Positions 3,636-37,395 of a DNA stretch of 39,261 nucleotides are shown piece after piece. The stretch is from a virus. The DNA is taken from the IMG/VR virus record IMGVR_UViG_3300017963_000456, positions 1 through 39,261 of that record; one strand, written 5' to 3'. The position numbers were made by a program, and so were the translations under genes. Under the pieces are notes generated by a model. That model had not been told where the DNA came from, did no database searches, and saw only the letters and a list, made by a program, of their open reading frames with translations. Every line of letters starts with the position of its first letter. The stretch's first letter is position 1.

Positions 3636-4908
3636 GGCGCGCTACAGGTACGGCGGTCCTATAGACGGTCGCACCGTGGTTCGCATCAAGTCGTATGCTG
3701 TTGACCGTATTAGGCGCCGCACGATCCTGCTAGCATCGGGCGAGTGCTGGACAGAAGAATACGGGCCGGATGGTTGGCCGACCTTGATAACTAATGGGCG
3801 AACGCGCGTTCGCATTCAGACCGAAGGAGACCTGGCTATGGATATGGACTTCCCACAACTCGACGACCTTTCGACCGAGGAGCAAAGTACCGGCGCGATC
3901 GCCGATGAGGCGCCGAAGGCCGAGAAGGTCTGCTTTGTGGGGGTTGGCCAGGCTGGATGCAAGATCGCAGATACGTTTTGGGGAAAGGGATACCGGAGAG
4001 TCCTGCTTATCAACACGACCGAGCAAGACATGGCCGGCCTGACCTGTCCGAATCGCGTGATCATGAAGGGCGCCGGCCAGGGAGCCGGCAAGCAGCGATC
4101 GGTCGGCCGCGCCGCCGCCGAGGCAGCTCGAGAGGAAATCTTGCGCGCCATGACCCGCGCCTTTGGGACGGACTTCGAACGCATCGTCGTCTGCACATCG
4201 GGCGGAGGCGGCACCGGATCGGGGGCTAGTCCGGTCATCATTGAGATTGCGCGTCAGTTCTGCGTGGAGATGGAGAAGCCTCGCAAGGTCGGCGCCATAG
4301 TCGGCGGCCCGCGCAAGTCAGAAGGGGCAGCCGTGTCGGCTAACCATTCGGCGTTGCTGGCTGAGCTGCACGCCATGACCCCGACGCCCATGATCCTCAT
4401 GGACAACGAGCGTATCGCCAAGCTCTATCCGACGGCGTCCGTCGCGCAGTTCATGTCGATCGCCAATCAGAATCTTTGTGGCCTTTACGACGTCTTCAAT
4501 GGCCTCGCCGCTCAGCCGTCCCCATATTCGACCCTAGACCCCGCCGATTACCGATCGGTGCTTGATGCGGGGGTTTTGGTCTTCGGCATGACGACGGTCA
4601 AGGACGCAGCCGACCCGACTTCGATCGCGGCGGCGGTCGAAAAGAACATGGCCGGAGGACTGCTGTCTGACTCGGCAAAAATCCAGCATGCCTCGCATGC
4701 GGCCGGCGTCATCGTTGCTTCCAAGGCGCGGCTTGAAACCCTTGCTCAAACCACTCTGGATCGCGGATTCGAGGCCCTGAATCGACTGATCGGAACTCCG
4801 GGCCTGGTCATACACACCGGGATCTACCAAGGTCCAGATAGTTTAGGTGACAGGGTCTTGGTCTATTGCATCGCGTCGGGACTGAAATGGATGCCGGAGA
4901 GCCGATAA
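3628..4908 (+). CDS. Tubulin/FtsZ-superfamily GTPase (phage tubulin-like)
   Basis: 426 residues. The GTPase core starts near residue 98: VCFVGVGQAGCKIAD (tubulin/TubZ-style GQAG nucleotide loop, 105-110), LLINTTEQDMAGL (127-138), the tubulin signature GGGGTGSG (192-199) and STLDPADYRSVL (301-312), which matches the T7 catalytic loop with its two aspartates. Proteins of this superfamily bind GTP and polymerise; in phages, PhuZ positions capsids and TubZ moves DNA. Residues 1-70 are an extra strand-rich domain. ATG 3838 in the same frame, with AAGGAG at 3824-3829, could give a 356-residue form starting MDMDF. A 16-bp palindrome lies between the two starts. The gene sits in the virion operon, an odd place for a cytoskeletal gene. 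The family call is firm; the role is open. Confidence 0.88.
   Translation: MPEARYRYGGPIDGRTVVRIKSYAVDRIRRRTILLASGECWTEEYGPDGWPTLITNGRTRVRIQTEGDLAMDMDFPQLDDLSTEEQSTGAIADEAPKAEKVCFVGVGQAGCKIADTFWGKGYRRVLLINTTEQDMAGLTCPNRVIMKGAGQGAGKQRSVGRAAAEAAREEILRAMTRAFGTDFERIVVCTSGGGGTGSGASPVIIEIARQFCVEMEKPRKVGAIVGGPRKSEGAAVSANHSALLAELHAMTPTPMILMDNERIAKLYPTASVAQFMSIANQNLCGLYDVFNGLAAQPSPYSTLDPADYRSVLDAGVLVFGMTTVKDAADPTSIAAAVEKNMAGGLLSDSAKIQHASHAAGVIVASKARLETLAQTTLDRGFEALNRLIGTPGLVIHTGIYQGPDSLGDRVLVYCIASGLKWMPESR
3798..3813 (+). promoter_or_regulatory. 16-bp palindrome GCGAACGCGCGTTCGC, copy 1
   Basis: A perfect inverted repeat inside the 5' part of the tubulin-like gene, 24 bases before the internal ATG at 3838. 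The same motif occurs at 11986, 20820 and 37373, always in the same orientation. It could be a DNA operator or promoter element, or an RNA hairpin with a GCGC loop. Confidence 0.7.
3824..3829 (+). promoter_or_regulatory. Strong internal ribosome binding site for ATG 3838
   Basis: AAGGAG lies eight bases before ATG 3838, in frame with the tubulin core. It is better placed than the GGAGG at 3611-3615 that serves ATG 3628 at twelve bases. It supports a second, shorter product. Confidence 0.55.
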
Positions 4909-5189
4909 TGGCGGACGATCGCATTCGGGCGCTCCTTTCCGAGCGCCAGGTTCATTGCACGCTTCGCAAGCAGCCCAAGGCTCTGACGGATTTTTTCTAC
5001 ATGCGCCTGCGCGAGTATGCGGTTCTCGGCGAGATCCAGGGCGAGGAGGCTCAGCTTCTAAGGCCGAGGCTTTTCACGTTTCTAAAGTTCATCGGCAAGC
5101 CCAACGACGTCTGGCGGAAGGAAGCTCTTATCCGCGATCAGTGGCCCTTGCTCGAGCCAGAGATTCGCCAATATGTCCCGGCGCCCTGA
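4908..5189 (+). CDS. Small protein of unknown function downstream of the tubulin-like gene
   Basis: 93 residues from ATG 4908, which overlaps the previous TAA (TAATG) and has GGAGAG upstream. The sequence is amphipathic and helical (KALTDFFYMRLREYAVLGEI, LLRPRLFTFLKFIGKP) with a charged, tryptophan-containing end. No known family is recognised. Its translational coupling to the tubulin-like gene makes it a candidate partner or adaptor, but it could equally be a neck protein, since the next gene resembles tail-completion proteins. It ends by ATGA-type overlap with the next gene. Confidence 0.6.
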   Translation: MADDRIRALLSERQVHCTLRKQPKALTDFFYMRLREYAVLGEIQGEEAQLLRPRLFTFLKFIGKPNDVWRKEALIRDQWPLLEPEIRQYVPAP

Positions 5190-5767
5190 TGTCAAAGCCG
5201 ATACTCGAAACCAAGGGACTCGACGAGGTTCAGGAATTTATCCGAACGCTCCCGCGCCGTGTCGAGGTCATCAAGCGGTACGTCACCAAGCTAATCGCTG
5301 ACGACATGGCTGGCCAGGTTACTCAGCGGGCTCCCAGTAACACGTTGGGCCTGCCGGCGAACTATCCCGATATAGAGGTCGCCGCTGTCGATGATCCGAA
5401 GAACCCAACCTTTGCCGCCATCTATGTGGGTCGCCCGACACGGGCCGGCGCTCTCGACCCAGCAACAACGGTTCTGTACCCGCGCCGTTACGATGACCGT
5501 GATGAATCCCCGATCTCTAGCGATTGCGGCGCTCGAGAAACTGGGGCCGTTCCCAATCGACGTTTTGCCAAGTGCCATCCCCAGGGATCGGGGGTATTTC
5601 ATGTTTCGACGAGCTCGACCAGACGAGGTAATGGCGCTTCGCGAAAGGGTCATAAGTCGTCGGGACGAGATACGGGCGGTGGTCACCGGAGCCGGATTCG
5701 ACGAAGAGGTGACGCCGGACGACATAGCGGCCTACTCCGACGTGGTTTTCGAGGTCCTTCGTCGTGA
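5189..5767 (+). CDS. Tail-completion-like protein, N-terminal part; frame shifts near 5500
   Basis: ATG 5189 overlaps the preceding TGA. The first ~100 codons read sensibly (LDEVQEFIRTLPRRVEVIKR, TFAAIYVGRP, ATTVLYPRRYDD) and fit small tail-completion proteins found near head-tail genes. After about base 5500 this frame becomes Arg/Ser/Gly-rich and looks like out-of-frame translation. The sensible protein continues in the next frame (ALEKLGPFPIDVLPSAIPRD). Joining them needs one base skipped around 5490-5510, either by a sequencing or assembly indel, a real mutation or a +1 recoding event. The end at 5767 is therefore probably not the biological end. Confidence 0.5.
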   Translation: MSKPILETKGLDEVQEFIRTLPRRVEVIKRYVTKLIADDMAGQVTQRAPSNTLGLPANYPDIEVAAVDDPKNPTFAAIYVGRPTRAGALDPATTVLYPRRYDDRDESPISSDCGARETGAVPNRRFAKCHPQGSGVFHVSTSSTRRGNGASRKGHKSSGRDTGGGHRSRIRRRGDAGRHSGLLRRGFRGPSS

Positions 5768-5987
5768 ATTCGGCTATGGGGGCGCCGCGCAGCCTCACTG
5801 GCGCCCTGCGGTCCGGGCTGTTTTACGCGGGTCGACCATGAAGCATCTGGCCGGAAGCCAGGCGCTTGCCGATCTTTTAGTAAGCCCGAACTACCACGGC
5901 TGGGTCCGGCTTGGTATCATCGGCTCAAACGTCACATACGGCGAAATAGAATCGCTTAGCCGATTCCAAAACAAGATCCTTGGCTGA
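5502..5987 (+). CDS. Tail-completion-like protein, C-terminal part in shifted frame
   Basis: This frame has good composition from about base 5500 to the stop at 5987 (RPDEVMALRERVISRRDEIR, DIAAYSDVVFEVLRREFGYG). ATG 5502 or 5493 is available but neither has a Shine-Dalgarno, and the upstream part of the frame looks non-coding. It is most simply the second half of the gene starting at 5189. As an intact fusion it would be about 265 residues. A separate overlapping gene is the alternative. Confidence 0.5.
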   Translation: MNPRSLAIAALEKLGPFPIDVLPSAIPRDRGYFMFRRARPDEVMALRERVISRRDEIRAVVTGAGFDEEVTPDDIAAYSDVVFEVLRREFGYGGAAQPHWRPAVRAVLRGSTMKHLAGSQALADLLVSPNYHGWVRLGIIGSNVTYGEIESLSRFQNKILG

Positions 5988-5997
5988 GGACTAGTCG

Positions 5998-6360
5998 ATG
6001 GCGCGTGATTACGACGATTTTGAGATCGATGACTCTCTCGTGGATGACCACGAAGAGGATTCCGAAGACCACGTCGACGACGATGACGATAGCGTTTGCG
6101 GTCCTCCGACCGAAGTCGATTGCATCGACGAGGAGCTGGAGCACATCGTCGAAGACCTGGAGAGAGCCGGTTACGACTCCGAGTTTGCCGAGGATGCGGT
6201 GTATACGGCGCTGGCGGGACTCTGCGAAGATGGGGAGGGCGACGATACGCCCGAAATGGACGAGGACGTAGCCACAAAGCAGACATGGGTCGCGCGTCAC
6301 GGGCCAATGATACGCCGGAAGCTCAGGGAAGACCTCAAGTTGACGTTCGAAGAGGGCTAG
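5998..6360 (+). CDS. Highly acidic small protein
   Basis: 120 residues from ATG 5998, with TGAGGA upstream. The N-terminal half is extremely acidic (DDHEEDSEDHVDDDDD) and is followed by a helical segment (DEELEHIVEDLERAGYD). A basic patch near the end (RHGPMIRRKLREDLK) follows. The charge could mimic DNA or shield a basic surface, but no family is recognised. It lies between the tail-completion-like gene and the tail-terminator-like gene, so a role in tail joining or assembly is possible. Confidence 0.6.
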   Translation: MARDYDDFEIDDSLVDDHEEDSEDHVDDDDDSVCGPPTEVDCIDEELEHIVEDLERAGYDSEFAEDAVYTALAGLCEDGEGDDTPEMDEDVATKQTWVARHGPMIRRKLREDLKLTFEEG

Positions 6361-6369
6361 GAGGCCATA

Positions 6370-7068
6370 GTGCCGCCCAAGTACACGCCCCGCACCGGAA
6401 ATGTCTTCATTCGCAATTTTGACGAGGGAGTCGTTAAGCGCCTCGGCTCCTATGAGGCTACCTTCGACCAGCAAGGGTACGGGCCGCGTTACGGCTATTG
6501 GCTCGACGTTCCGACTTGCACGCCGATTCAGGTTCCCGTCATCTTCAACCAGCCTGAACAGATTTTTGAGAAAAAGATCTATCCGTCGATTCTGATCACA
6601 CGAGATCCCCCTGATCTCGCGATGCAGCGCTGGCATTCTGTTAAGCAGCTCGAGTATTTCGCAGGCGTCCTTGGCACGGAGACGACCGCTATCGTTGGCG
6701 CGACGACGGTCTCCGGGTTCGGCCAGGTCGAGGTCAAACAGCAGGCGATGCCATATGACATCACGTATACCGTCGCCGCCTATGCCCGATACGAGCACGA
6801 GGCGATCCCTCTGCTTCAGGCCATCCTTCGCAAGTTCACGCCTTACGCCAAGATTCCTGTGGTTGACAGTCTGGGCGACACGAGGTGGTACACGACCGTC
6901 AACGAGGGCGGGGTTCAGGATCTGTCCGAGATCGCGGATATCGCGGATCGGGTCAAGGCGTATGCCCAGCTAGTCCGCGTGGAGGCCGAGCTCGACCTCT
7001 TGGACCCGGTCACTCACTCCACGGTCGGATCTATCGAGTCGACCATCGGTGTGTCGGGAACTTTTTGA
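6370..7068 (+). CDS. Tail terminator / sheath-completion-like protein
   Basis: 232 residues from GTG 6370, with GGAGG at 6360-6364. The middle is strand-rich (MPYDITYTVAAYARYEHEA), then helix and strand (PLLQAILRKFTPYAKIPVVD), then LSEIADIADRVKAYAQLVRV and an acidic strand. This order resembles tail terminators and T4 gp15-type proteins that cap the tail and stop tube and sheath growth. It sits directly before the sheath gene, as expected for that role. The assignment is by pattern and context, without an active-site motif. It is the last gene before a 106-base non-coding gap. Confidence 0.5.
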   Translation: MPPKYTPRTGNVFIRNFDEGVVKRLGSYEATFDQQGYGPRYGYWLDVPTCTPIQVPVIFNQPEQIFEKKIYPSILITRDPPDLAMQRWHSVKQLEYFAGVLGTETTAIVGATTVSGFGQVEVKQQAMPYDITYTVAAYARYEHEAIPLLQAILRKFTPYAKIPVVDSLGDTRWYTTVNEGGVQDLSEIADIADRVKAYAQLVRVEAELDLLDPVTHSTVGSIESTIGVSGTF

Positions 7069-7081
7069 TCGATGGGCATGC

Positions 7082-7119
7082 TTGACACAATTGCGTCGGC
7101 GACCCGAACCCGTTAACAT
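7082..7119 (+). promoter_or_regulatory. Candidate promoter before the tail operon
   Basis: The 106-base gap before the sheath gene holds a perfect -35 hexamer TTGACA (7082-7087), but no -10 at the normal distance. TTGCGT (7091-7096) with TAACAT (7114-7119) is spaced 17 bases. It is plausible only because the gap is unusually long for this operon. Confidence 0.25.
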
Positions 7120-7174
7120 TTTTCTGTAGAACACCTGCACAAGCACAAAGTCAAGTCGAGGGGAGGCCGGGCCA

Positions 7175-8983
7175 ATGTCTGAGTTTCTAAGCGCTGGCGT
7201 CTTCACCGAGGAGGTTCGATCCGGCGAAAGCGCGATCCTCGGCGTTTCGACGTCTACCTTCGCATCGGCGGGATGGCTACCACGCGGCCTAGAGAATAAG
7301 GCCGTTCTGACTACGAGCCTGCCCGACTATTTCCGTAAATGGGGCGGATATTGGAAGAACAGTGATCTTCCGCTTGCCGCGACGGCTTTTTTCAAGAACG
7401 GCGGGTCGCGCGCATACTTCGTTCGCGTTTGCCCGTCTGACGCGACGGCCGCGACCGCGAGCGAGCCATCGAAGTGGAAGTACGATGCCATCTCGCGCGG
7501 CGCGTGGGGAAACAACGTCCGACTCGTGATTCGCGGAAACGAGAACAACTACGATTTCAACACTGCGATCTTCTCGAAGTACGACATTGAGCTTCAAGAA
7601 GAGAGCAGTGATGGTGCCGGCGACTTTGCGATCGTCGAGACCTTCGAAGCGGTGGATCTGTCGGACGCTGACGCTGCCGATTACTTCCCGGAAGTTGTCA
7701 ATGACGACGCCACTGGTTCCAAGATCGTCAAGATCAGCGATCTCGGCGGCGGCATCCCGGCAAGTCTGATCCCATCTGCGACGACGGATGAAGCCGTCGA
7801 TACCGGCGACAACGTCCAGACGTCATTCGCGGCGACCCTCGCGAACCCGACCATCGCGGCGCATACACTGAAGGTGAAGGTCGATGGCGTCGTTGCCGCC
7901 AAAGACAACGGACGCGGTGTGCTGACGCTGGTCGGCACTGTCTTCTCAGGCGTTTCCGGGTCGATCGACTATGAGACCGGCGATCTCGCGATCGCATTCA
8001 CTCCCGCCCCGGGCCTCGGAGAGGCGATCACTGCCGACTACATCAAGAAGGGTGTCGACGAGATCGTCTACGACCTTTCCGGCGGTACGGACGGCACATC
8101 CGTTTCTGCAAACGACATCGTCGATGCTTCTCTGTCGGCTGACAAAAAGGGCCTCTATGCCCTTGATGATGTCGACGAGGTCTTGAACATTGGCCTGCCA
8201 GACTTCGACGGCGACGTTGTGGCAGCCAACGGGATCATCGACTATTGCGCGGGCCGAGAGGATTGCTTCGCGATTCTGGGATGCGCGCGCGGCATCGATG
8301 CCCAGGACGCCAAGATCTACCGCCAAGTGACCCTCAACAGCCTGTCGAGCTATGGCGCCCTTTACTATCCGGGCGTCAAAGTATCCGACCCCTTAAAGAA
8401 TGGTCGCTCTCGCGCGATTTCTGCGGTTGGGCATATCGCTGGTCGATACGCTTACACTGACCAGAAGCGCAACGTGGCGAAGGCGCCAGCCGGAACAGTC
8501 GACGGAGCCCTGGCGTTCACTACGGGTCTTGAGCGAGTCCTGTCCAAGGGCGAGCGCGATCTCATTTACCCGGTGAACATCAATCCATTGATCGACACCC
8601 CGGCAACTGGCCGCGCGATCTGGGGCGCGAGGACGCTGGAGCTTAGCGGCGATTTCACTCTTGTTCCGGTCCGTCGCCTCTTCATCTTCCTGAAGCGATC
8701 CGTGTGGCTCAGCACACAAGATCTCGTTTTTGAGCCGATCGGTGACGATCTCTTCTCGATCACGAGCTTCCGGATGACCGCATTCTTGAACCGCCTCACG
8801 TCGGAGAATTATTTCTCCAGCCGTGTCCCGGCTGAGGCGTTCCGGGTTGTGGTCGACAATTCGAACAACACCGACGCCACGAAGCTCGCTCGCCAACTCA
8901 TCACTGATATCTTGGTGAGCACTCAGACTCCCGGTGAATTCATTCGATTCAGGTTCCAACGCTCGTTGAAGGCGCTCAGCTAA
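7175..8983 (+). CDS. Contractile tail sheath protein
   Basis: 602 residues from ATG 7175, after a GGGGAGG site. The N-terminus has the typical sheath opening: SAGVFTEEV, a strand region with VSTSTFASAGWLPRG, then AATAFFKNGGSRAYFVRVCP. The C-terminus has the conserved sheath core: AIWGARTL, RRLFIFLKRSVWLSTQDLVF, then FRVVVDNSNN. The middle (~150-350) is a variable surface domain with acidic strands. Sheath subunits form the contractile outer tail tube and drive the inner tube through the host envelope. The length is usual for larger myoviruses. It starts the tail operon and is followed by the tube gene. Confidence 0.95.
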   Translation: MSEFLSAGVFTEEVRSGESAILGVSTSTFASAGWLPRGLENKAVLTTSLPDYFRKWGGYWKNSDLPLAATAFFKNGGSRAYFVRVCPSDATAATASEPSKWKYDAISRGAWGNNVRLVIRGNENNYDFNTAIFSKYDIELQEESSDGAGDFAIVETFEAVDLSDADAADYFPEVVNDDATGSKIVKISDLGGGIPASLIPSATTDEAVDTGDNVQTSFAATLANPTIAAHTLKVKVDGVVAAKDNGRGVLTLVGTVFSGVSGSIDYETGDLAIAFTPAPGLGEAITADYIKKGVDEIVYDLSGGTDGTSVSANDIVDASLSADKKGLYALDDVDEVLNIGLPDFDGDVVAANGIIDYCAGREDCFAILGCARGIDAQDAKIYRQVTLNSLSSYGALYYPGVKVSDPLKNGRSRAISAVGHIAGRYAYTDQKRNVAKAPAGTVDGALAFTTGLERVLSKGERDLIYPVNINPLIDTPATGRAIWGARTLELSGDFTLVPVRRLFIFLKRSVWLSTQDLVFEPIGDDLFSITSFRMTAFLNRLTSENYFSSRVPAEAFRVVVDNSNNTDATKLARQLITDILVSTQTPGEFIRFRFQRSLKALS

Positions 8984-9020
8984 GTCAGAACGAACGGGAA
9001 TATGACGGAGGGTTGGACAG

Positions 9021-9527
9021 ATGGCACGCGCGTCAAACACGGACTACTTTCACAATTTCAAGTTCCACATGCGTGTGGTCAGTTCGACCACCGTCGGCGG
9101 GGCTACCGTCGGAGCTCAGGGCGGATTCACGAATATCGCCATGCCTGAGATCACCGTCGAGACGGCGGAGTATCAAGAGGGGACGATGCTTTACCGCCGG
9201 AAATATCCGGGCCAGGTGAGTTTCAGCGACGTTTCGGTGTCGCGCGGCGTCGTCAAAGGAAACACCGAGCTGTATGACTGGATTCGCGCGTCATACCTTG
9301 GCTCGGAATATCGAGCGGATGTGGAGATTCGCCACATGCATCGCGACGAGGTCACAAGCCTCACCGACTTCACAGCGGTGGCAGCCAAGCGTAAAGTAAA
9401 GCTTTACGAGGGCATGGCAACGCGGGTTAAGCTCGGGGGCGACCTCGACGCACAAAGCTCCGACGTCTCGGTCGAGGAATTCGACATCGTGTACGAGAGC
9501 GCCGAGCTCGAAAACCCGGCCGCCTAA
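9021..9527 (+). CDS. Tail tube protein (T4 gp19-like)
   Basis: 168 residues from ATG 9021, with GGAGGG upstream. The pattern fits the tube family: a conserved start (YFHNFKFHMRVV), GGFTNIAMPEITVETAEYQE, then RRKYPGQVSFSDVSVSRGVV, a helix ELYDWIRASYLG, and a last strand VSVEEFDIVYESAEL. Stacked hexameric rings of this protein make the inner tail tube through which DNA passes. The sheath-then-tube order is standard. A second, longer tube-family gene lies at 10949. Confidence 0.88.
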   Translation: MARASNTDYFHNFKFHMRVVSSTTVGGATVGAQGGFTNIAMPEITVETAEYQEGTMLYRRKYPGQVSFSDVSVSRGVVKGNTELYDWIRASYLGSEYRADVEIRHMHRDEVTSLTDFTAVAAKRKVKLYEGMATRVKLGGDLDAQSSDVSVEEFDIVYESAELENPAA

Positions 9528-9552
9528 TGGCGACCCATGAGGGAATCCCAAA

Positions 9553-9876: not shown

Positions 9877-9909
9877 TCCCAGACACCCTGAAATAGACGG
9901 GGCAAAAGA

Positions 9910-10371: not shown

Positions 10372-10388
10372 AGCGTAAGGAGACCTAG

Positions 10389-10940: not shown

Positions 10941-10948
10941 GGTGATTC

Positions 10949-11503: not shown

Positions 11504-11513
11504 GAGGTAGGTG

Positions 11514-11981: not shown

Positions 11982-11985
11982 GAGA

Positions 11986-12001
11986 GTGAACGCGCGTTCG
12001 C
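11986..12001 (+). promoter_or_regulatory. 16-bp palindrome GTGAACGCGCGTTCGC, copy 2
   Basis: Same motif as at 3798, 20820 and 37373. Core GAACGCGCGTTC is a perfect 12-bp dyad. A TATCTT at 12004-12009 follows, at almost the same offset as TATCAT in the tmRNA promoter. The RHH gene starts about 130 bases downstream. Confidence 0.7.
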
Positions 12002-12006
12002 AATAT

Positions 12007-12028
12007 CTTCTGTCCCTCCTGACAGAAG
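12007..12028 (+). ncRNA. Hairpin with CCTCCT (anti-Shine-Dalgarno) loop; candidate sRNA or leader element
   Basis: CTTCTGTC (12007-12014) pairs perfectly with GACAGAAG (12021-12028), leaving exactly CCTCCT in the loop. A GC-rich terminator-like hairpin follows at 12042. Some bacterial sRNAs use such loops to bind Shine-Dalgarno sequences. It could instead be part of a 3' mRNA end or a DNA operator. Confidence 0.4.
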
Positions 12029-12041
12029 TTCCAACGAGAAT

Positions 12042-12068
12042 GAGGGGGCCGGCTTAGCCAGCCCCCTC
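12042..12068 (+). terminator. Probable terminator hairpin with weak T-tract
   Basis: GAGGGGGC (12042-12049) pairs with GCCCCCTC (12061-12068), then one C/A mismatch and three more pairs close a TTA loop. It is followed by TGCTTGTTA rather than a clean T run, so termination may be partial. Confidence 0.5.
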
Positions 12069-12134
12069 TGCTTGTTACGGCGTCATAAGTGTGCAACGAT
12101 TGCAGCATTACTCTCGCCCTATCGAGGAGTCATC

Positions 12135-12335
12135 GTGAATCGAGACGACCATGTCGATATCGAGCCGCCAACTGATATGGCGCCAAAAGATCGTGTTCGA
12201 GTCAATTTCTGGCTTCGCCGCGATCTCTACGAACAGGTTCTTGAAGTCGCAGCAGAGGACGACATCAAAGTTGCGCCGGCTATCCGCCAGGCCATCAAAT
12301 ATTACGTTAGAGCCCGCAAGGAGGGACGTGCTTGA
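12135..12335 (+). CDS. Ribbon-helix-helix (CopG/Arc-like) DNA-binding protein
   Basis: 66 residues from GTG 12135, five bases after GAGGAG; upstream in-frame starts lack such a site. The core is a short strand (RVRVNFWLRR), a helix (DLYEQVLEVAAEDD) and a second helix after a turn (KVAPAIRQAIKYYVRA), which is the ribbon-helix-helix pattern. Such dimers insert their strands in the major groove at short inverted repeats and usually repress. Charged residues at both ends fit DNA binding. It is the only clear transcription regulator in the window and lies just after palindrome copy 2, so autoregulation is plausible. TTGA overlap couples it to the next gene. Confidence 0.65.
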   Translation: MNRDDHVDIEPPTDMAPKDRVRVNFWLRRDLYEQVLEVAAEDDIKVAPAIRQAIKYYVRARKEGRA

Positions 12336-20400: not shown

Positions 20401-20823
20401 GTGGCAGCACCGCCGCTCAATTCTGGCACCACCCGTCCATCCAGCACCGCCGAATCACAACGTGACTTGGTGGGGATTTCTTTCCCGTTCCGCAAGGAAA
20501 ATGGGGAATTCCCCGCGCGCGTGCGGAACGCGGATTGCGTGCAAAACAACATTTTCACGCTATTCAAAACGCCGAAGCGCAGTCGTATCATGCGGCCGTT
20601 GATGGGAACGAATGCTTACGATCTCGTCTTTGAGTCACAGGGATCTCTGCTCAAGACGCGGCTCGACCGTGGAATTCGCCAGACCATCAAGAATGGCGAG
20701 CCTCGAGCCAATCCCCTCAGTATCAGGATCACTGATACCGACTCCGAGACCACGGCCGAGGTACTCTATGAGGTTCAGGGAGTGCGCGAGGTCATAGCGT
20801 TGGATCCCTTCCAGAAAAAGTGA
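20401..20823 (+). CDS. Baseplate wedge protein gp25-like
   Basis: 140 residues from GTG 20401, six bases after GGAGGG. The first ~28 residues are a low-complexity lead (NSGTTRPSSTAESQRD). The core has the gp25/gpW pattern: LVGISFPFRKENGEFP, NIFTLFKTPKRSRIMRPLMG, TNAYDLVFESQG, then LLKTRLDRGIRQTIKNGEPR and a last strand TAEVLYEVQGV. This protein clamps the sheath to the baseplate wedge in contractile tails. It precedes the gpJ gene, which is the usual pair. Confidence 0.85.
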   Translation: MAAPPLNSGTTRPSSTAESQRDLVGISFPFRKENGEFPARVRNADCVQNNIFTLFKTPKRSRIMRPLMGTNAYDLVFESQGSLLKTRLDRGIRQTIKNGEPRANPLSIRITDTDSETTAEVLYEVQGVREVIALDPFQKK

Positions 20824-20835
20824 ACGCGCGTTCGC
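20820..20835 (+). promoter_or_regulatory. 16-bp palindrome GTGAACGCGCGTTCGC, copy 3
   Basis: Lies across the gp25 stop codon and just before the GGAGG at 20838-20842 of the gpJ gene. As RNA it could form a 6-bp stem with one U-G pair and a GCGC loop next to the ribosome binding site. Confidence 0.65.
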
Positions 20836-20850: not shown

Positions 20851-22518
20851 GTGGCGGTTGAACTCAACAAGGTGCTTTATGTCGATCAGGACTTCGGGAC
20901 GGCTGTAGCCGCGATCCAGAACTTCCTGAGCTCGGAGTACCCGGACGAGTACAACGACTATATAGGCGCCAACCTTGGCCAGGCATTGATAGATATCATC
21001 GCCTACGCCGAGCAGAATCTGCTTTGGTATCTGAACCGCAAGGTCACTGATCTTTATTTCCCGACGGCCCGCACTCCCAACGCGGTCTCCAAGATAGCGC
21101 GCATGTTGGGGTACAAACCGAAAACGGCGACCTATGCTCAGGCGTCGGTAACGATCCGTTTGAAAAAGGGTCCGTATACTTTCCCGGTCACGATCAATCG
21201 CGGTTTCAAGCTCCGAGGTCCGAACCGCACGACCTGGGAATATAGAAGCGACGTCCCGATCGTCTTCGCCCCGGGTGAGCTCGTCAAGACGCTGACGGCG
21301 TCGCAGGGCGAGACGATCACCACGAACTTTATTTCATCCGGCGCGACCAATCAGGTCTTTGAGCTGCGCGGCATCTCGACCGGGAAATTTGTGGCTGGCG
21401 CCGACTTCCAGGTGTTTGTCGATGGGGTCGAGTGGGAGGAGTACGGACAGGTCCCATTCTCGGTGATCGAGGCGTATGAAACGAATCTGGTGACGAATCC
21501 GCCATACCTCCGATTTGGGGACGGCGTTCAGGGAAAGATCCCGCCTCAGGGCGCGGCAATCGAAGTCAAGTATGTGGTTTGCGACGGATTCAAGGGCCGC
21601 ATACTCGCGGGCGCCATCAAGGAGCCGATCTCGAACCTTGTCTCGAATTTCCAGACCATCCCGCTCGAGATCACCCAAACGGCAGCTTCCGCTGGCGGCG
21701 ATGACCCCGAGGATCTCCGGTCTATCGTCGTAAACAGCCCATTGTTTCAGCGGACCCAAGATCGGGCGATCACCAAGGGCGACTATGACTTTCTGTCGAA
21801 TCAATATGAAAACGTGGCGCGAGCGAACGCTTCTATAGTGCGCGGCGTTTCCGGCGACCTGGCGGTGCAGAATATCTACTCTGTATTCCGCGAGCAGATC
21901 GGCAAGCTGATGCTTAACTCATGCGAAACAGTCTCCGGATCTGGAGAATATGTTTCTGGGGTCGCGGGGGCGGTGTCTGGATACCTCGATATTCTCTATG
22001 ACCATATCGACTTGAATTTCACGGATTCCTGTAATGGCAACCTCGTCCAGGTGGCCGTGTTGTCGAAGGACGCGAATCGTCGCTATGTCGCGCCCCTGCA
22101 GGAGACATTAGACGGCCTCAAAGCTCATCTCGAAGAGCGCAAGGACGCGACCCACACGCTTGAGGTTCTATCCGGAACGGCAAACGTGGTCGACGCAACG
22201 ATCACGGTGCGCGTCAAGGTCAGTCAAAACGCGATCGAAGATGACGTCGTCCAGGAGATTAGCGACGCTCTCGAGAAAAGTGATGAGACACCATTCGGAC
22301 TCCTCGTCGAGCGTCCATTCGATCAGAGCCTCTATCTGTGGAACGTGGAGCAGGCTTTGATCGACGGCATCGAAGACGTGAATAATCGCGTCGTCTATAT
22401 CGACGTCGAAATCACTGGTCCGGCCGAGTTTCTCGACGATTACGGCAATTTGATTATTCCCAATGGATACGTCATTCAAAACGGCGGCGTCACGATCGTG
22501 AAGCTGCCTCGATATTGA
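20851..22518 (+). CDS. Baseplate wedge protein gpJ-like
   Basis: 555 residues from GTG 20851. The N-terminal part (LGQALIDIIAYAEQNLLWYL) and the conserved region AGGDDPEDLRSIVVNSPLFQ, RTQDRAITKGDYDFLSNQYE fit the Baseplate_J / T4 gp6 family. The C-terminal part has DATITVRVKVSQNAIEDDV and a wedge-arm domain. The protein forms the baseplate wedge that triggers sheath contraction. It follows gp25 as usual and is preceded by palindrome copy 3, so its transcription or translation may be controlled separately from the hub genes. Confidence 0.92.
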   Translation: MAVELNKVLYVDQDFGTAVAAIQNFLSSEYPDEYNDYIGANLGQALIDIIAYAEQNLLWYLNRKVTDLYFPTARTPNAVSKIARMLGYKPKTATYAQASVTIRLKKGPYTFPVTINRGFKLRGPNRTTWEYRSDVPIVFAPGELVKTLTASQGETITTNFISSGATNQVFELRGISTGKFVAGADFQVFVDGVEWEEYGQVPFSVIEAYETNLVTNPPYLRFGDGVQGKIPPQGAAIEVKYVVCDGFKGRILAGAIKEPISNLVSNFQTIPLEITQTAASAGGDDPEDLRSIVVNSPLFQRTQDRAITKGDYDFLSNQYENVARANASIVRGVSGDLAVQNIYSVFREQIGKLMLNSCETVSGSGEYVSGVAGAVSGYLDILYDHIDLNFTDSCNGNLVQVAVLSKDANRRYVAPLQETLDGLKAHLEERKDATHTLEVLSGTANVVDATITVRVKVSQNAIEDDVVQEISDALEKSDETPFGLLVERPFDQSLYLWNVEQALIDGIEDVNNRVVYIDVEITGPAEFLDDYGNLIIPNGYVIQNGGVTIVKLPRY

Positions 22519-27238: not shown

Positions 27239-27242
27239 GGTA

Positions 27243-29080: not shown

Positions 29081-29090
29081 GGGGGATTTC

Positions 29091-29864: not shown

Positions 29865-29880
29865 AACAAGGGGTCAAACG

Positions 29881-31953: not shown

Positions 31954-31954
31954 G

Positions 31955-32791
31955 ATGTCTGATGTCATCCGAACTGGCGGCGACAGGATCATAGAAAACC
32001 CCATCCAAGGCGGAAGCCTTATTCTCCGCACAACCGCTGTAGGCGGCGCGAAGAATGATGCTGTTTCAATTTCCGGTTCTGGAGTTATGACTGCTCCTGC
32101 CCAGCCGCCGATCGGCTCTATCGTATCGTACAGCCCAGGGTATTTTACCAACGGTTCAAACGGAGGATTTACTCGCGTAGGTCCTGCTACAAATACGGTC
32201 GCCGGAGTGAATAGCTATTTACCGGGAAATTGGAGAGTGTGCGATGGATCTGCGCTAAACGATCCAGATTCACCTATCTGGGTCGGGGCGAGCCGATTTC
32301 TTCCGAACCTCACTGACTCTCGGTTTCTGATGGGTTCGACAGCGGCAGGGACGACAGGCGGCGCTAATACGGTGCCGCACACTCACTCAGTCACAAGCAA
32401 TGTTACCGTCTCTGCTCAGCCTACTTTCACTGTCCCCGATCACTATCACGGCAAAGGCACTTTGAATATCACGAGTAGTGGTGCTCACACTCACACGTAC
32501 AGCACTACGACCCCACAATACATAACAGCGGGAACAGCCTGGACAGATACCGGAACAGGTTATGATTCTTATACAGCGACAATGAACTCTAGCGGCGCAC
32601 ACACTCACCCCAGCTCGAACTTTGCCGGTTCGGTAGGTTCGACTGGAGGGGCGAACGGCGATGTCGATTTCGCGGCGACCAGGACGACTAACGTCGCGCT
32701 TGCGAACGCCGCTGTTACATCTGAAGCTGCATCTGATTCCGAGAATCGGCCTTTGCACCTGACTGCCTTTTACATCATTAGGGTGAAGTGA
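31955..32791 (+). CDS. Tail collar-type receptor-binding fibre tip
   Basis: 278 residues from ATG 31955, after GGAGG. The central part fits the phage collar/gp12-type fold: PPIGSIVSYSPGYF, GNWRVCDGSALNDPDSPIWV, FLPNLTDSRFLMGSTAAG. The C-terminal part has repeated H-x-H motifs (PHTHSV, HYHGK, GAHTHTYS, GAHTHPSS), as in metal-binding tips of T4 gp12/gp37, and ends NRPLHLTAFYIIRVK. The N-terminal motif GGDRIIENPIQGGSLIL recurs in the secreted protein of the gene at 33052. No signal peptide, so this is the virion form. Confidence 0.75.
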   Translation: MSDVIRTGGDRIIENPIQGGSLILRTTAVGGAKNDAVSISGSGVMTAPAQPPIGSIVSYSPGYFTNGSNGGFTRVGPATNTVAGVNSYLPGNWRVCDGSALNDPDSPIWVGASRFLPNLTDSRFLMGSTAAGTTGGANTVPHTHSVTSNVTVSAQPTFTVPDHYHGKGTLNITSSGAHTHTYSTTTPQYITAGTAWTDTGTGYDSYTATMNSSGAHTHPSSNFAGSVGSTGGANGDVDFAATRTTNVALANAAVTSEAASDSENRPLHLTAFYIIRVK

Positions 32792-33036
32792 TGGGCGTTT
32801 ACTCGGTGCGATATAGGCGCAAGAATCAATGGTTTTGGAGAACCATCAAGAATGTAAAGGGCGACCTGCTCGCATCTGATCTTCCCGGCTCTCCTAGAGT
32901 TTTCATTCTGTCAGACGAGTCTCGTGTAGAGGTCCCGTCAGATGATCTGGAGTTGAGATTTTCCAAAGAGCGATTCATCGTCATTAAGCAGAACATGGAA
33001 AAAGACGCCGGGCAGGTTTTGCCGGTTAGCACCTAG
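32791..33036 (+). CDS. Small protein between virion and secreted fibre genes
   Basis: 81 residues from ATG 32791, overlapping the previous TGA; a GTG at 32788 is also in frame. Starts basic and aromatic (YSVRYRRKNQWFWRTIKNVK), then VFILSDESRVEVPSDDLELR. The order of strand, turn and strand suggests a small SH3-like or beta domain. It is not recognised. It may be a fibre-assembly helper of the preceding tip gene, as such small genes often follow fibre tips. Confidence 0.5.
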   Translation: MGVYSVRYRRKNQWFWRTIKNVKGDLLASDLPGSPRVFILSDESRVEVPSDDLELRFSKERFIVIKQNMEKDAGQVLPVST

Positions 33037-33051
33037 AGATTGAGGGCAACA

Positions 33052-34077
33052 ATGAAAAAATTTCTCCTCTCCCTACTCCTCGCAGTCCCGTCATTCCCCG
33101 CCTTCGCGGGCGACCGGGTCATCATCAATCCCGAGCAAGATGGCGACCTAAAGATCAAGGTGAACGATGGCGGGTCAGTCACGGACGTGATGACGTTCCA
33201 GGGCTCTAGCGGGAATGTTGGCATCGGGACAACCGCACCATCGAGCACGCTCACCGTCGCGGGCGGCGAAACTCGAATCACGGACACGAGCGGGAACCTC
33301 ATTCATCGTTTCGAGCAGGACGGATCACAGACCGGGTACAGGGTAGGGAACGCGGTATCTCACTCTTATCTTAGATACAATGGCTCCTTCGCCTCACCTA
33401 CTGCTGTCGCCAACGGCGAGACGTTGAGCCAGATTCTATTCCGAGGGTACGATGGAAGTAATGCTCTCAGCGCAGCGTCAATCACGGCGACTGTAGACAA
33501 CCCCGTCGGCACCAACGACATGCCGGGTAGGTTGATATTCTCCACTACAGCAGACGGAGCAAGTAGCCCATCTGAACGCATGAGGATTGCCAACACAGGC
33601 AACGTCGGAATCGGTACCAGCTCGCCTAGTGAGAGGCTTGAGGTGAGAGCGACCGGAACATCCAATGTTATGCGAGTCACCTCAGATCAGACGACCGCTA
33701 GGATCATATTCAACACAAGCGGAGCGGATAGAGGGCAGATCACTAGCTCAACTGCGGACGCCATTCGGTTCAATAACGGGGCTGGTAGCGAAATAGCTAG
33801 AATCTCATCAACCGGATTTTTCGCCACACCATCTACCGGGGCAATCTACAACGGCACTGACGCCTCAAATGAGATTGGATTTTTCGCTGGCAGTAACGGA
33901 GGAGCGACTACTGACTCATGCCAGACCATTTGTGACGGAGATAGGGCAGGCCATGGTCTGAGTACGGGCACTGCGGCTTTGTGTGTTGGCGGGTGGAATC
34001 AGCCGACTGGAGTGACAATCACCTGTTCCGACACATCTAATATCTTCAAAAACTGCGTATGCTTCGGACGAAGGTAA
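33052..34077 (+). CDS. Secreted fibre-like protein with signal peptide
   Basis: 341 residues from ATG 33052, after TGAGGG. Clear signal peptide: MKKFLLSLLLAVPSFPAFA then GDR. The mature start (GDRVIINPEQDGDLKIK) matches that of the virion fibre tip at 31955. The shaft contains SGNVGIGTTAPSSTLTV and GNVGIGTSSPSERLEV, repeats typical of trimeric phage fibres and of cell-surface fibres in Bdellovibrio-type bacteria. The C-terminus is cysteine-rich (CQTICDGDRAGHG, TCSDTSNIFKNCVCFGRR), which suits disulfides outside the cytoplasm. Export of a phage fibre homologue is unusual; adhesin, decoy and host-surface modification are options. Confidence 0.75.
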   Translation: MKKFLLSLLLAVPSFPAFAGDRVIINPEQDGDLKIKVNDGGSVTDVMTFQGSSGNVGIGTTAPSSTLTVAGGETRITDTSGNLIHRFEQDGSQTGYRVGNAVSHSYLRYNGSFASPTAVANGETLSQILFRGYDGSNALSAASITATVDNPVGTNDMPGRLIFSTTADGASSPSERMRIANTGNVGIGTSSPSERLEVRATGTSNVMRVTSDQTTARIIFNTSGADRGQITSSTADAIRFNNGAGSEIARISSTGFFATPSTGAIYNGTDASNEIGFFAGSNGGATTDSCQTICDGDRAGHGLSTGTAALCVGGWNQPTGVTITCSDTSNIFKNCVCFGRR

Positions 34078-34084
34078 ACACAAA

Positions 34085-34342
34085 ATGCGCCTACTCCTCA
34101 TCCTCCTAGTCCTACTCGCCGGATGCACCACGACCGCACAGCCGGAACGCTGGGAGCTGCCGACGAGCGAGAAGATCATTTGCTTGCGCTACGAGCAGGC
34201 CGAGTGCGGTTTGTCTCTGCTGTCGTGCGGTGACGATCACTCGGTAGACTTCGAGTGCTTGACCGAGGCAAAATATTTAGGCCCTGGTGAATACCTTGAG
34301 CCAGATTTTTACGACGAGCCAAATGAGGACGAGTCGCCATGA
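34085..34342 (+). CDS. Small lipoprotein
   Basis: 85 residues from ATG 34085. A lipoprotein signal with lipobox LLAGC puts the lipidated cysteine at residue 14. The mature part has four more cysteines (LRYEQAECGLSLLSCGD, DFECLTEAKY) and an acidic C-terminus (DFYDEPNEDESP). Six bases after the preceding secreted fibre-like gene and overlapping the next, it likely belongs to that secreted set. The function is unknown; a surface anchor or superinfection factor are possible. Confidence 0.7.
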   Translation: MRLLLILLVLLAGCTTTAQPERWELPTSEKIICLRYEQAECGLSLLSCGDDHSVDFECLTEAKYLGPGEYLEPDFYDEPNEDESP

Positions 34343-35418
34343 GTAGGTCTTACCGCACCATTGTAGCGTTGTGCTTCCTTGTCGGGCTCGCGTCCCTTGT
34401 CGGGGCGTGGACGATCAAGGAGACGAAGACCGATCAGGATCTAGACTTCTATGTGGCGCCTGGCGGGACGCCGACGAAGGCGTTGTCGATTGATGGCGCG
34501 ACGGGTTCATCTGAAATAGACGGATCATCAGACACGGTACAACTCAACATCAAAGGCCACACGACTCAGACGAATAGTGTATCGCCGCTGCTTCGCCTTC
34601 AGGGTGGTGGTGCTTATATTCCTGACCTTTGGATCACACGATCCGCAACAGACGTTGACTCCCCATCTGCTCCCATAAGCGGTAACTCGGTCGGCGCGAT
34701 AACCTTCAAGGGTTACGACGGGAACTCTTACGAGGAGTCAGCTTCAATAAGGTCGCTAGTTGACGGGACACCGGGCGATGGAGATATGCCTGGGTCTCTT
34801 GCGTTCTCGACTACTCCAGATGGAACCGCTACTCGCGTAGAACGCATGCGAATCGACAACGCTGGCAATGTCGGCATTGGGACAACTTCTCCGGCTGGAT
34901 TGACGCATATTTCAAGAGCGGTTAGCGCAGGAGACGTAAAGCTAATCATAGAAAATTCCCAGGGAACCGGAAGCACAACAGAGCGAGCCGTGCTTGAGTT
35001 AAAGCCTTCTCAGACTCTAAGCGTCCATGGCGCTCAAGTGAGAGCTGTCAGAGATGACAATTTTGTGGCTAATCCAGCCGGACGTGATGTCGGTCTTGAG
35101 TTCGTTGTAGTGCCTAATGATAACCCTTCTGTCGCGATGAAAATAAACAACACAGGGGGCGCCATTATATATGACACCGGAAACAATGGCGGTAACGTGC
35201 CGCATGCTTGCAACCGAGTAGTAGGCACACCTGTTAACAATCAGACATCCACAGTATCGTGCGCTGCTGGCGAGAAAGTTATTGGTGGTGGATGTCAGTC
35301 GGATCTGCCTAACAGCCCATTGAGTAGAAGTTATCCATCTAACGACACTACCTGGACTTGCGTATATACGACTTCCGTTAACTCGAATATAGCCACCGCC
35401 ATCTGCTGCGACTACTAA
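34339..35418 (+). CDS. Second secreted fibre-like protein
   Basis: 359 residues from ATG 34339, overlapping the previous stop by four bases. N-terminal signal or membrane anchor (RTIVALCFLVGLASLVGA). The mature part shares the fibre-shaft motifs of the 33052 protein (AITFKGYDGNSYEESASIRS, RMRIDNAGNVGIGTTSPAGL) and the ALSIDGATGSSEI start motif. The C-terminal part is cysteine-containing and different (VSCAAGEKVIGGGCQSD, TTWTCVYTTS, TAICCDY). It could form a trimeric surface fibre with the other secreted protein. Confidence 0.75.
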   Translation: MSRSYRTIVALCFLVGLASLVGAWTIKETKTDQDLDFYVAPGGTPTKALSIDGATGSSEIDGSSDTVQLNIKGHTTQTNSVSPLLRLQGGGAYIPDLWITRSATDVDSPSAPISGNSVGAITFKGYDGNSYEESASIRSLVDGTPGDGDMPGSLAFSTTPDGTATRVERMRIDNAGNVGIGTTSPAGLTHISRAVSAGDVKLIIENSQGTGSTTERAVLELKPSQTLSVHGAQVRAVRDDNFVANPAGRDVGLEFVVVPNDNPSVAMKINNTGGAIIYDTGNNGGNVPHACNRVVGTPVNNQTSTVSCAAGEKVIGGGCQSDLPNSPLSRSYPSNDTTWTCVYTTSVNSNIATAICCDY

Positions 35419-35427
35419 GAGGCCAAA

Positions 35428-35562
35428 ATGTCCGAGAATAAAATCGACTGGACGCATTTCTGCCTCGCCATCGCTGCGATCTTTGTCGGCTTTACTCTCG
35501 CGGCGTGGGGTGTCGTTGCGGCCAATCACTTGCAGCTGATTATTGCCCCGGCGTCGCCGTAG
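35428..35562 (+). CDS. 44-residue single-span membrane protein
   Basis: ATG 35428, after a short AAGAGG site. The peptide has one hydrophobic segment (FCLAIAAIFVGFTLAAWGVV) preceded by a polar start (MSENKIDWTH) and ends IIAPASP. It is too short to assign, but small one-span proteins in phages often act in lysis or in superinfection defence. It is the last + strand gene before a 193-base gap (35563-35755) in which nothing clear is seen. Confidence 0.5.
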   Translation: MSENKIDWTHFCLAIAAIFVGFTLAAWGVVAANHLQLIIAPASP

Positions 35563-35755
35563 TCTTCTCAATCGCGATCAATCGCGGTACGATCTATATC
35601 AGCCTGATAGCTCAAAAAGCTTAGAGCGCTCTCCAAAACTCGGGCTGGGTTTAGACGAGAGAGATGCCGACTGGCGATCGGCTTGGGCTACACTCTAAAT
35701 GTGAGGATGAGAAATGCGCGACAAAGGCCATTGCATCATCGTCACGATTGCCTAA

Positions 35756-36100
35756 CTAACCCCGCAGCAACGCCACGAGCGCCTCATATCCTTCGTCCAG
35801 AAGGATCTCCGTATCCCCGTCAGTCAAAATCACCGCTGAGTCAGCGCCATCGTTCTGTGGGATGGCGACGGCTATCGCCTTTTTGTTTATCAGCATGGTT
35901 TTGTCGCCGGTCTCGACGACCTCGATGAACGACGGATGATCCGCGAGCGCGCGCGCGATCGCCTGGAAGCCCTCGTCGACTCTCATGACGCCGCCGCATC
36001 TCATGGTGATCAGAGAGCCGCTATCTTCGTGAGCGACTATTTTAAGGATCCAGTCGGCATTGACCGTAACGGGCGTTTCTCGCGTGACTTTGATGAACAT
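35756..36100 (-). CDS. Minus-strand protein with two FlbD-like repeats
   Basis: 114 residues starting at 36100 on the minus strand; AGGAGA lies seven bases upstream (reverse complement of 36107-36112). Two similar halves are visible: a strand VNADWILKIVAHEDSGSLIT then MRVDEGFQAIARAL, and INKKAIAVAI then SAVILTDGDTEILLDEGYEA and LVALLRG. The pattern resembles the small FlbD-type fold, without clear identity. It is the only minus-strand gene with coding quality, and it diverges from the collagen-like lipoprotein gene. It may be a regulator or a moron. Confidence 0.6.
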   Translation of the reverse strand: MFIKVTRETPVTVNADWILKIVAHEDSGSLITMRCGGVMRVDEGFQAIARALADHPSFIEVVETGDKTMLINKKAIAVAIPQNDGADSAVILTDGDTEILLDEGYEALVALLRG

Positions 36101-36308
36101 CTGGGTCTCCTCTAGGTCAGGGTGGTTGGGCCTGGTTTACCCAAAAACGGCAGGGAGCCCGAGTCCTCATTTCCGGCAGCCGCCAACAGCCCGGGTTTTT
36201 GTTAGTCGAGTCGCCGTGTTGCCGGTCAAAAATAGCCCTAAAGTCCTGCCGCAGGATGCCGAAGAAGGTGTCGACGGTCAAAACCGGCCGGAAATTAAGG
36301 GGGTTTAT

Positions 36309-37295
36309 ATGAGGATCTCGATTTTCCTTTTCGTCGGTCTCACGGCAGCCTGCGGCACCGCGCCAACGGCGGGCGATAGTCCTAGCGTGACGGCCTCCCA
36401 GGCGCCTGCGGCGGCCACGCCGATCAGCAACGCCAAGCAGGATAGCGGCGTGACGACGGTCGCCTCGCCGGCCAAGCTGCCGACCTGCGACGGCGCCGCC
36501 GAGGGCACACTGGCCTACGTCCGCTCGGAGCGATCCCTCATGATCTGCGAGGGGGCCGATTGGGTCGCGGCGCCTATCGCCGACGGCGGGGCCGGGAAGG
36601 ACGGGCGCGACGGTCGCGACGGCAAGGACGGCGCCCCGGCGAGCGTCGATATCGCCGAGGTCGAGCCGGGCGACGTCTGCGCGGCGGGCGGCGCTGTCAT
36701 CACGCCATTCGTCGACACGGATGGCGACGGGCTCCTCGGCGCCGACGACGACCCTGGTGACGCCGAGGTCGTCTGCGACGGCGAGGCGGGCGTGGACGGC
36801 GAGGCAGGCGCGAAGGGCGCCAAGGGGGAGGCTGGGGCCAAGGGTGACAAAGGCGACAAGGGCGACGCTGGCGCCGACGGCACCGACAACCATATCGTCA
36901 TGAAGTACGTTTGCACGGGCGCGGTCAGGCACGCCTCGATGGCGAGCGGGACGCCGACCGACCTTTCGAGCACATATCAGGTCTTCGTCGACTCCTCCGG
37001 CGACGCTAGGGCCTGGGCGCAGATCGCCTGGGGCGACATCCCGGCGGTTCCGCAGACGGCCGGCTACGGCCAAATCTGGACGGCCGAGTACAGCGCGTCT
37101 GAGGCGGGCGCTGAGACAGCGATCGTGTCGGGCCTGATGAACTGGAACACCGGCCCATCGGGGGCCTCCTACACGGGGCGCTGGACCTTCACGCTCGACC
37201 GCGCAAACGATACCGCGCAGGCCAAGTATGACGACCCGGACATGACGCCAACGTCGGTTTGGTTTACGCACACCTGCACCAAGACGACCTTCTGA
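36309..37295 (+). CDS. Collagen-like lipoprotein
   Basis: 328 residues from ATG 36309, after AAGGGGG. Signal with the lipidated cysteine likely at residue 15 (LTAAC). A Pro/Ala/Ser-rich linker follows, then a small module with LPTCDGAAEGTLAYVRSE and LMICEGADWV, of a type common in deltaproteobacterial surface lipoproteins. Gly-X-Y collagen-like runs flank a calcium-loop-like motif (DTDGDGLLGADDDP, residues 136-149): GKDGRDGRDGKDGAP and GAKGDKGDKGDAGADG. The globular C-terminal part ends HTCTKTTF. A surface-exposed trimer on the host is likely. The 208-base gap upstream likely holds its promoter, not located. Confidence 0.75.
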   Translation: MRISIFLFVGLTAACGTAPTAGDSPSVTASQAPAAATPISNAKQDSGVTTVASPAKLPTCDGAAEGTLAYVRSERSLMICEGADWVAAPIADGGAGKDGRDGRDGKDGAPASVDIAEVEPGDVCAAGGAVITPFVDTDGDGLLGADDDPGDAEVVCDGEAGVDGEAGAKGAKGEAGAKGDKGDKGDAGADGTDNHIVMKYVCTGAVRHASMASGTPTDLSSTYQVFVDSSGDARAWAQIAWGDIPAVPQTAGYGQIWTAEYSASEAGAETAIVSGLMNWNTGPSGASYTGRWTFTLDRANDTAQAKYDDPDMTPTSVWFTHTCTKTTF

Positions 37296-37318
37296 TCCGA
37301 CCTTGAGGGCGGGCGACG

Positions 37319-37343
37319 AGGGCTGCCATTTGGCGGCCCTTTT
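37319..37343 (+). terminator. Rho-independent terminator after the collagen-like gene
   Basis: GGGCTGCC (37320-37327) pairs with GGCGGCCC (37332-37339), including one G-U pair, around an ATTT loop. A TTTT run at 37340-37343 and further T residues follow. It separates the lipoprotein gene from the tmRNA. Confidence 0.8.
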
Positions 37344-37365
37344 CGCTTTCCGCGCGCTTCCCTCC

Positions 37366-37395
37366 TTGCCGCGCGAACGCGCGTTCGCCTATCAT
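37366..37395 (+). promoter_or_regulatory. Sigma70-type promoter of the tmRNA gene
   Basis: TTGCCG (37366-37371) and TATCAT (37390-37395) are 18 bases apart, and the tmRNA 5' end follows eight bases after the -10. The whole spacer is filled by palindrome copy 4, a usual place for a repressor or activator site. Confidence 0.6.
37373..37388 (+). promoter_or_regulatory. 16-bp palindrome GCGAACGCGCGTTCGC, copy 4
   Basis: Perfect inverted repeat between the -35 and -10 of the tmRNA promoter. Identical to copy 1; copies 2 and 3 differ at one base. Confidence 0.75.

Follow-up and report, generated by a model that had tools for sequence, protein, structure and literature searches.

Palindromic sites in a T4-related phage

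The DNA examined here, the whole 39,261-bp IMG/VR record IMGVR_UViG_3300017963_000456 (hereafter the window), belongs to a T4-related phage, in which an initial annotation had drawn attention to four copies of a 16-bp palindrome, GYGAACGCGCGTTCGC, which exact matching recovered (Table 1). One of these copies lies near each of four genes, encoding a tubulin/FtsZ-like protein, a small ribbon-helix-helix (RHH)-like protein, a baseplate wedge protein and a transfer-messenger RNA (tmRNA), and they had been read as a regulon element. We lean instead, with somewhat more than even confidence, towards seeing the four palindromes as part of a dispersed set of sites resembling parS, Noc-binding sites (NBS) or KorB operators and read by a predicted ParB-fold helix-turn-helix (HTH) protein: they look like landing sites for a chromosome-handling (ParB-like) protein of the phage, not like switches of the four adjacent genes.

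Table 1. Positions of the palindromes, their neighbouring genes, the counterparts in cultured phages and the candidate protein-site pairs (window coordinates unless stated otherwise)
Feature	Position	Strand	Remarks
Tubulin/FtsZ-like gene holding copy 1	3628..4908	+	Pfam Tubulin E 7e-18; G010 homologue 38% identical
Copy 1 (GCGAACGCGCGTTCGC)	3798..3813	.	exact match; inside tubulin-like gene, in-frame R-T-R-V-R
Copy 2 (GTGAACGCGCGTTCGC)	11986..12001	.	intergenic, 5 bp past a stop codon
Small RHH-like protein gene, 3' of copy 2	12135..12335	+	disfavoured as binder
Copy 3 (GTGAACGCGCGTTCGC)	20820..20835	.	its TGA is the stop of a gp25-like gene
Baseplate wedge (gpJ/gp6-like) gene, 3' of copy 3	20851..22518	+
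Copy 4 (GCGAACGCGCGTTCGC)	37373..37388	.	ends 16 bp upstream of the Rfam tmRNA match
tmRNA gene, 3' of copy 4	37404..37813	+	Rfam RF00023, 114 bits
Copies in the joined contig c, first eight	4644, 6767, 11624, 15985, 19943, 24485, 30351, 33509		at most 1 mismatch
Copies in the joined contig c, other seven	42356, 54026, 57811, 67280, 75468, 84302, 100855		at most 1 mismatch
Dispersed palindromes of DLP5	L419-L423
Dispersed palindromes of RcZahn	L424-L428
Dispersed palindromes of RHph_Y1_11	L399-L403
Candidate protein-site pair, DLP5	gp067 / TGCAATCAATTGCA		predicted
Candidate protein-site pair, G029	G029 protein / GCGCAAGCGCTTGCGC		predicted

The palindrome is dispersed over the known genome of the phage

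When viral contigs were scanned for the 16-mer, 56 stretches matched, and only two contigs (G001 and G002) contained multiple copies. Both are further pieces of the window's phage: G002 shares 21.2 kb with the window at 99.98% identity and 9,451 bp with G001 at 100% identity. Given the size of the collection, the single-copy viral matches look like chance. Joining G001 (reversed), 42 bp and the window, bridged by G002, gave a contig c of 102,743 bp (window offset 63,482), a partial genome in which nearly all genes run in one direction. In this contig the palindrome is found 15 times with one mismatch or none, at an average interval of about 7 kb; no copy has two mismatches, and the three that differ at three positions all fall within the window. 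The 12-bp core GAACGCGCGTTC is found exactly 13 times in these 102,743 bp when 0.014 occurrences are expected under a 4th-order Markov model, so that chance recurrence is indeed negligible, as had been claimed, and no other palindrome of at least 10 bp in c is over-represented like this core. Among the matches listed, the exact 16-mer is single-copy in bacteria and occurs in unrelated ones only, which argues against a repeat of the host genome and leaves standing the view that this is a phage-wide DNA element.

The copies had also been described as sharing one orientation, which carries little meaning since copies 1 and 4 are perfect palindromes that read the same on either strand. The sole departure from symmetry in copies 2 and 3 is a T at position 2, and what holds of the description is that this T lies on the left side in all five T variants of the extended phage; in three of these five (c 4644, 57811 and 84302, the last being copy 3), the resulting TGA terminates the preceding gene. 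Eight of the 15 copies in c are intragenic; between them they use every frame of the three and encode different peptides (GRTRVRIQ, GANARSLF, DCERAFAE and others), and it is therefore the DNA rather than the protein that is conserved. In addition, five of the 15 site centres are no more than 15 bp away from a gene end, for an expectation of 0.65, these distances being approximate since genes were called with a simple script of our own.

Relatives and cultured phages carry counterparts with other letters

Relatives of the window's phage, reached via the T4-like major capsid protein, were found to have their own dispersed 14-16-bp palindromes (CGAAAGCGcTTTCG, TGAACTtaAGTTCA, CGCAAGCGCTTGCG, GTGCACnCGnGTGCAC), so that the kind of element is conserved but its sequence differs in each relative: TGAACTtaAGTTCA is the palindrome of G008, CGCAAGCGCTTGCG the motif of G012, G029 and G014, and GTGCACnCGnGTGCAC that of G025. 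The 157-kb G010, whose structural module is syntenic, has a near-palindrome, CGAAAGCGATTTCG, which together with its variants occupies about 24 sites; these face either way, and most of them fall within genes. An agnostic scan for gapped palindromes detected the same 5+4+5 geometry with other letters in G010, G012, G029, G014, G025 and G008, and such palindromes were later also seen in G032, G033 and the three cultured phages described below; a mismatch-tolerant palindrome count was too noisy to help. No clear motif was seen in the 40-kb G005, and none of this kind in shuffled genomes or in the controls T4, P1, S-CAM9 and SP-15, apart from GGGGCn4GCCCC in T4, which looks like T4 terminators.

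Three other repeats, GCGACC-n3/4-GGTCGC (G022, G019, G018), CCGCCCGTACGGGCGG (G021) and AAACTn4-5AGTTT (G014, G029, G033), were left out of the counts because they could be RNA hairpins or terminators. The last of these is a second dispersed palindrome, embedded in AAAACTC...GAGTTTT and present in 10-18 copies in G029 (L165-L174), G014 (L185-L193) and G033 (L415-L418), and it probably corresponds to terminators. G021 (L194-L202) contains AATCCGCCCGTACGGGCGGATT about 15 times, mostly between genes and hairpin-like.

Family 22, the protein family considered below as the reader of these sites, has relatives in cultured phages (Stenotrophomonas DLP5 and DLP3, Rhodobacter RcZahn, Rhizobium RHph_Y1_11 and Vibrio phages, with VHS1 among its carriers), and dispersed palindromes were therefore predicted there. 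They were indeed present in three phages whose replication module is related: in DLP5, where TGCAATnAATTGCA has 36 sites (the arms are exact in 31, for an expectation of 0.13), in RcZahn (28 sites) and in RHph_Y1_11 (31 sites), the TGCAATnAATTGCA motif being common to these Stenotrophomonas, Rhodobacter and Rhizobium phages. Palindromes go unmentioned in the papers on DLP3 and RcZahn, and in the literature outside subscription papers we found no paper containing the site strings.

Over ten phages with 229 sites in total, spacing is more even than random in each (P<0.031; Fisher P 4e-16), and 129 sites (56%, when 201 are expected) are intragenic, in all reading frames and with different peptides. 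Spacing that is even and indifferent to frame favours a mechanical role across the genome over one at promoters and argues against a promoter regulon, terminators and LexA control.

Family 22 is a candidate reader of the sites

Family 22, hitherto annotated only as hypothetical, is encoded (e.g., at G012 80311-81276) within a recombination/replication module with RecA-, RuvC-, Cas4- and SSB-like genes, named from our own reading of the sequences plus PHROGs where searched. Each of the nine near-complete genomes with the motif encodes it and all four controls lack it, a pattern that the RHH, MerR-like and tubulin families fail to show. In G025, a site lies about 90 bp from the start of the family 22 gene. 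Judging from the proteins aligned, the putative recognition helix covaries with the motif: KRT(A/G)ENLR is common to all five CGCAAGCGCTTGCG phages compared and is missing from phages with other motifs. Most relatives also encode ParB_N as a protein of its own, often close to family 22, and in G017-G019, G021 and G022 its gene follows that of family 22 with one short gene between.

AlphaFold2 models of two family 22 members that are about 20% identical reached pLDDT (predicted local distance difference test) values of 82 and 91. When they were compared with the PDB by VIA-align, the DNA-binding domains of ParB, Spo0J and Noc occupied ranks 1-12 for the first (Z 8.7-6.4, 93-101 residues, root-mean-square deviation 2.4-3.2 Å) and ranks 1-9 for the second (Z 8.1-6.6). 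The top matches include complexes with parS and with Noc sites, and the KorB-operator complex 1r71 is also among the matches (Z 5.7).

Several observations weigh against a ParB-like reader of this family. Pfam and PDB sequence searches with family 22 gave no ParB match and the Foldseek E-values of both models are not significant, so that the assignment stands at the level of the fold, and the VIA-align Z-scores lie where helical folds can match by arrangement alone. Families 17, 21, 30 and 36 of the same module show the same presence pattern as family 22, which in turn occurs without a clear dispersed palindrome in G017, G018, G031 and Vibrio phage 1. ParB_N was not found in G010, which has sites. 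The known 102.7 kb of the window's phage holds no family 22 gene, its replication region lying outside all contigs found, and the binder of this phage is thus deduced from its relatives; we predict that the gene is in the missing replication region. Finally, 64 of the 229 sites are within 30 bp of a stop codon, a three-fold enrichment over the 20 expected, which may reflect transcription and its regulation or simply a lower coding constraint.

Taking family 22 as the reader, a ParB/Noc-type HTH protein would bind each palindrome as a dimer, and the separate ParB_N (CTPase-like) protein may load or lock it and thereby let it spread between sites, whose even spacing would allow the protein to cover, compact or tether the genome. 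The sites would then probably serve genome maintenance, including segregation, during extrachromosomal replication or lysogeny, possibly combined with KorB-like silencing; local action at single sites, such as a steric block of the tmRNA promoter at copy 4, is also possible. Lifestyles of this kind are on record among the carriers: DLP5 exists as a phagemid (PMC5834331), DLP3 and DLP5 carry ParB-domain proteins that the DLP3 paper links to the phagemid state (PMC7326821), and lysogens of VHS1 keep the phage genome outside the chromosome (PMC3148565). According to a survey of the ParB CTPase fold, many phage ParB_N proteins lie outside ParABS systems (PMC12704722). More tentatively, and with odds that we put clearly below even, large phages and phage-plasmids could share an unrecognised genome-organising system, in which a split ParB (an HTH-only reader plus a ParB_N switch) would coat or compact the whole chromosome from 15-36 evenly spaced, fast-evolving parS-like palindromes.

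Other readings of the sites

The same sites could be stoperators or global repressor sites, through which family 22 or another phage protein would silence the genome in the prophage or early state, as in mycobacteriophage L5, with P1 C1 or with KorB on RK2; we judge this unlikely, at about one chance in a handful. Sites are enriched at gene ends and in intergenic gaps, some of them over stop codons, copy 4 adjoins the tmRNA start region, and DLP5, DLP3 and VHS1 are temperate, with an extrachromosomal state shown for two of them. Silencing from distant operators is documented for KorB, which is related to ParB (PMC11790492). However, more than half of the sites are intragenic in any frame, both orientations occur in relatives, and spacing is even irrespective of promoters, of which few are expected in the window's phage since nearly all of its genes run one way; the genes inspected included no recognisable integrase or repressor.

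Less probable still, in our view, is that the even spacing serves DNA processing, with the sites as targets of an enzyme of replication, recombination or packaging (Chi-, resolvase-, gyrase- or terminase-like). The spacing would suit such a use, and a RuvC-like resolvase (family 30), a Cas4-like nuclease (family 21) and families 17 and 36 match the presence of family 22. On the other hand, it is family 22 that has the HTH fold match, being the only one of these families that was modelled, Chi-type signals are asymmetric and oriented, and we know of no need of resolvases or Cas4-type nucleases for 16-bp palindromes.

The regulon proposed in the initial annotation, in which the RHH protein would read operators or promoters that link tubulin, tmRNA and structural genes, fits poorly and is very improbable. 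Three of the four window copies do precede genes: copy 2 lies about 150 bp upstream of the RHH gene, and copy 3 overlaps the gp25-like stop and, as had been noted, precedes gpJ. Copy 1, said to precede an internal start of tubulin, is within the tubulin coding sequence and not upstream of it; there it encodes R-TRVRIQT (the trailing IQT is also found in the G010 homologue). The regulon is further disfavoured by the 15 evenly spaced copies, half of them intragenic in all frames, by the two orientations seen in relatives and by the lack of a shared -10 element 3' of the sites. The RHH family is absent from most site-bearing phages, and the RHH protein is disfavoured as binder because G025, DLP5, RcZahn and RHph_Y1_11 all lack homologues.

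No more credible are boxes of the host SOS repressor LexA, used or titrated by the phage. CGAACn4GTTCG, the Gram-positive/actinobacterial LexA box, fits the window motif, and TGCACn4GTGCA of G025 resembles the Fibrobacter box; to our knowledge, CGCAAGCGCTTGCG, CGAAAGCGCTTTCG and TGCAATnAATTGCA fit no LexA box. LexA motifs do vary between phyla, but TGCAATnAATTGCA of the Stenotrophomonas, Rhodobacter and Rhizobium phages differs from both the gammaproteobacterial CTGTN8ACAG and the alphaproteobacterial GTTCN7GTTC (PMC8565304). Even, intragenic spacing and the absence of a LexA DNA-binding domain from these phages also speak against LexA, which we rejected on the lack of this domain and the misfit of the relatives' motifs.

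RNA hairpins, as intrinsic terminators or processing sites, are the least probable: T4 has terminator-like repeats, and the mostly intergenic hairpin-like repeats of G021, G022 and G019 may be such, but here about half of the copies are intragenic, no T-run follows the window copies, and the 6-bp arms flank a conserved, self-complementary 4-base centre. Type III (TubZRC) partition, with tubulin as an obligatory partner, was also discarded because G014, G025, RcZahn and RHph_Y1_11 have sites and no member of the tubulin family.

Neighbouring features

Tubulin/FtsZ-like genes occur in several members of the T4-related group (c, G010, G012, G015, G017 and G022; L106), and the window's tubulin had no tblastn match among the cultured phages searched. 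The gap between copy 2 and the RHH gene contains a strong hairpin, GAGGGGGC...GCCCCCTC (window 12033-12076; -27.8 kcal/mol for 61 nt, z -3.25), which is probably a transcription terminator and the "sRNA-like island" (sRNA, small RNA) of the initial annotation. The tmRNA was detected by Rfam and not by ARAGORN, its likely tag reading frame being GNDNVVHVDFSRKASVVKLAA, and past it lies a gene for a papain-like cysteine protease (window 37886-38692; Pfam Peptidase_C1, E 1e-6). An 83-bp direct repeat, 93% identical, covers window 773-855 and 1148-1230, at the starts of two adjacent small open reading frames. The large terminase gene of this phage (L073:3369-6734) is apparently split by an intein-like insertion (GCLAAGH...VHTHN).

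Comparison with known systems

In known ParB-parS systems, a few sites lie close to an origin or a plasmid centromere. The phage groups described here, some of which comprise cultured temperate phages that persist as plasmids, have dozens of sites at even intervals along the whole genome, with letters specific to each phage. If our interpretation is true, a class of phage genes that lack annotation would be explained, plasmid-like phages could be recognised by a sequence signature, and orthogonal protein-site pairs would be available as a natural set.

The likeness to ParB-parS and Noc-NBS lies in the sites, which in such systems are dispersed or clustered near-perfect palindromes of 13-16 bp and here are dispersed ones of 14-16 bp, and in the candidate binder, whose predicted fold is closest to Spo0J/ParB/Noc. 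Noc sites are moreover scattered over the chromosome. Unlike ParB and Noc, family 22 has no N-terminal CTPase domain of its own (no match to the CTP-binding domain PF02195 in its members), ParB_N being encoded separately, and no similarity at the sequence level; the sites follow one another at even intervals along the entire phage genome rather than gathering near an origin. Members of the ParB/Noc family are known to switch specificity (PMC7383237).

KorB on RK2 has a ParB-family HTH, which for family 22 is a fold-level prediction, and it shares the short palindromes spread over the replicon; as a ParB relative it combines sliding with long-range silencing (PMC11790492); it differs by its CTPase domain and by its site letters, and the sites here are more numerous and often intragenic. 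Stoperators of the mycobacteriophage L5 type are likewise short, almost identical to one another and numerous along a phage genome, frequently where genes meet, and they are asymmetric and oriented with transcription. Those described here are instead palindromic, many of them perfectly so, evenly spaced, often intragenic (129 of 229) and in both orientations in G010, and no L5-type repressor was seen. CtrA sites in alphaproteobacterial phages (PMC9437464) also represent a transcription-factor motif repeated in phage genomes; these are sites of a host factor, mainly intergenic and concentrated in certain regions, whereas the palindromes described here are evenly spaced and differ in their letters between phages.

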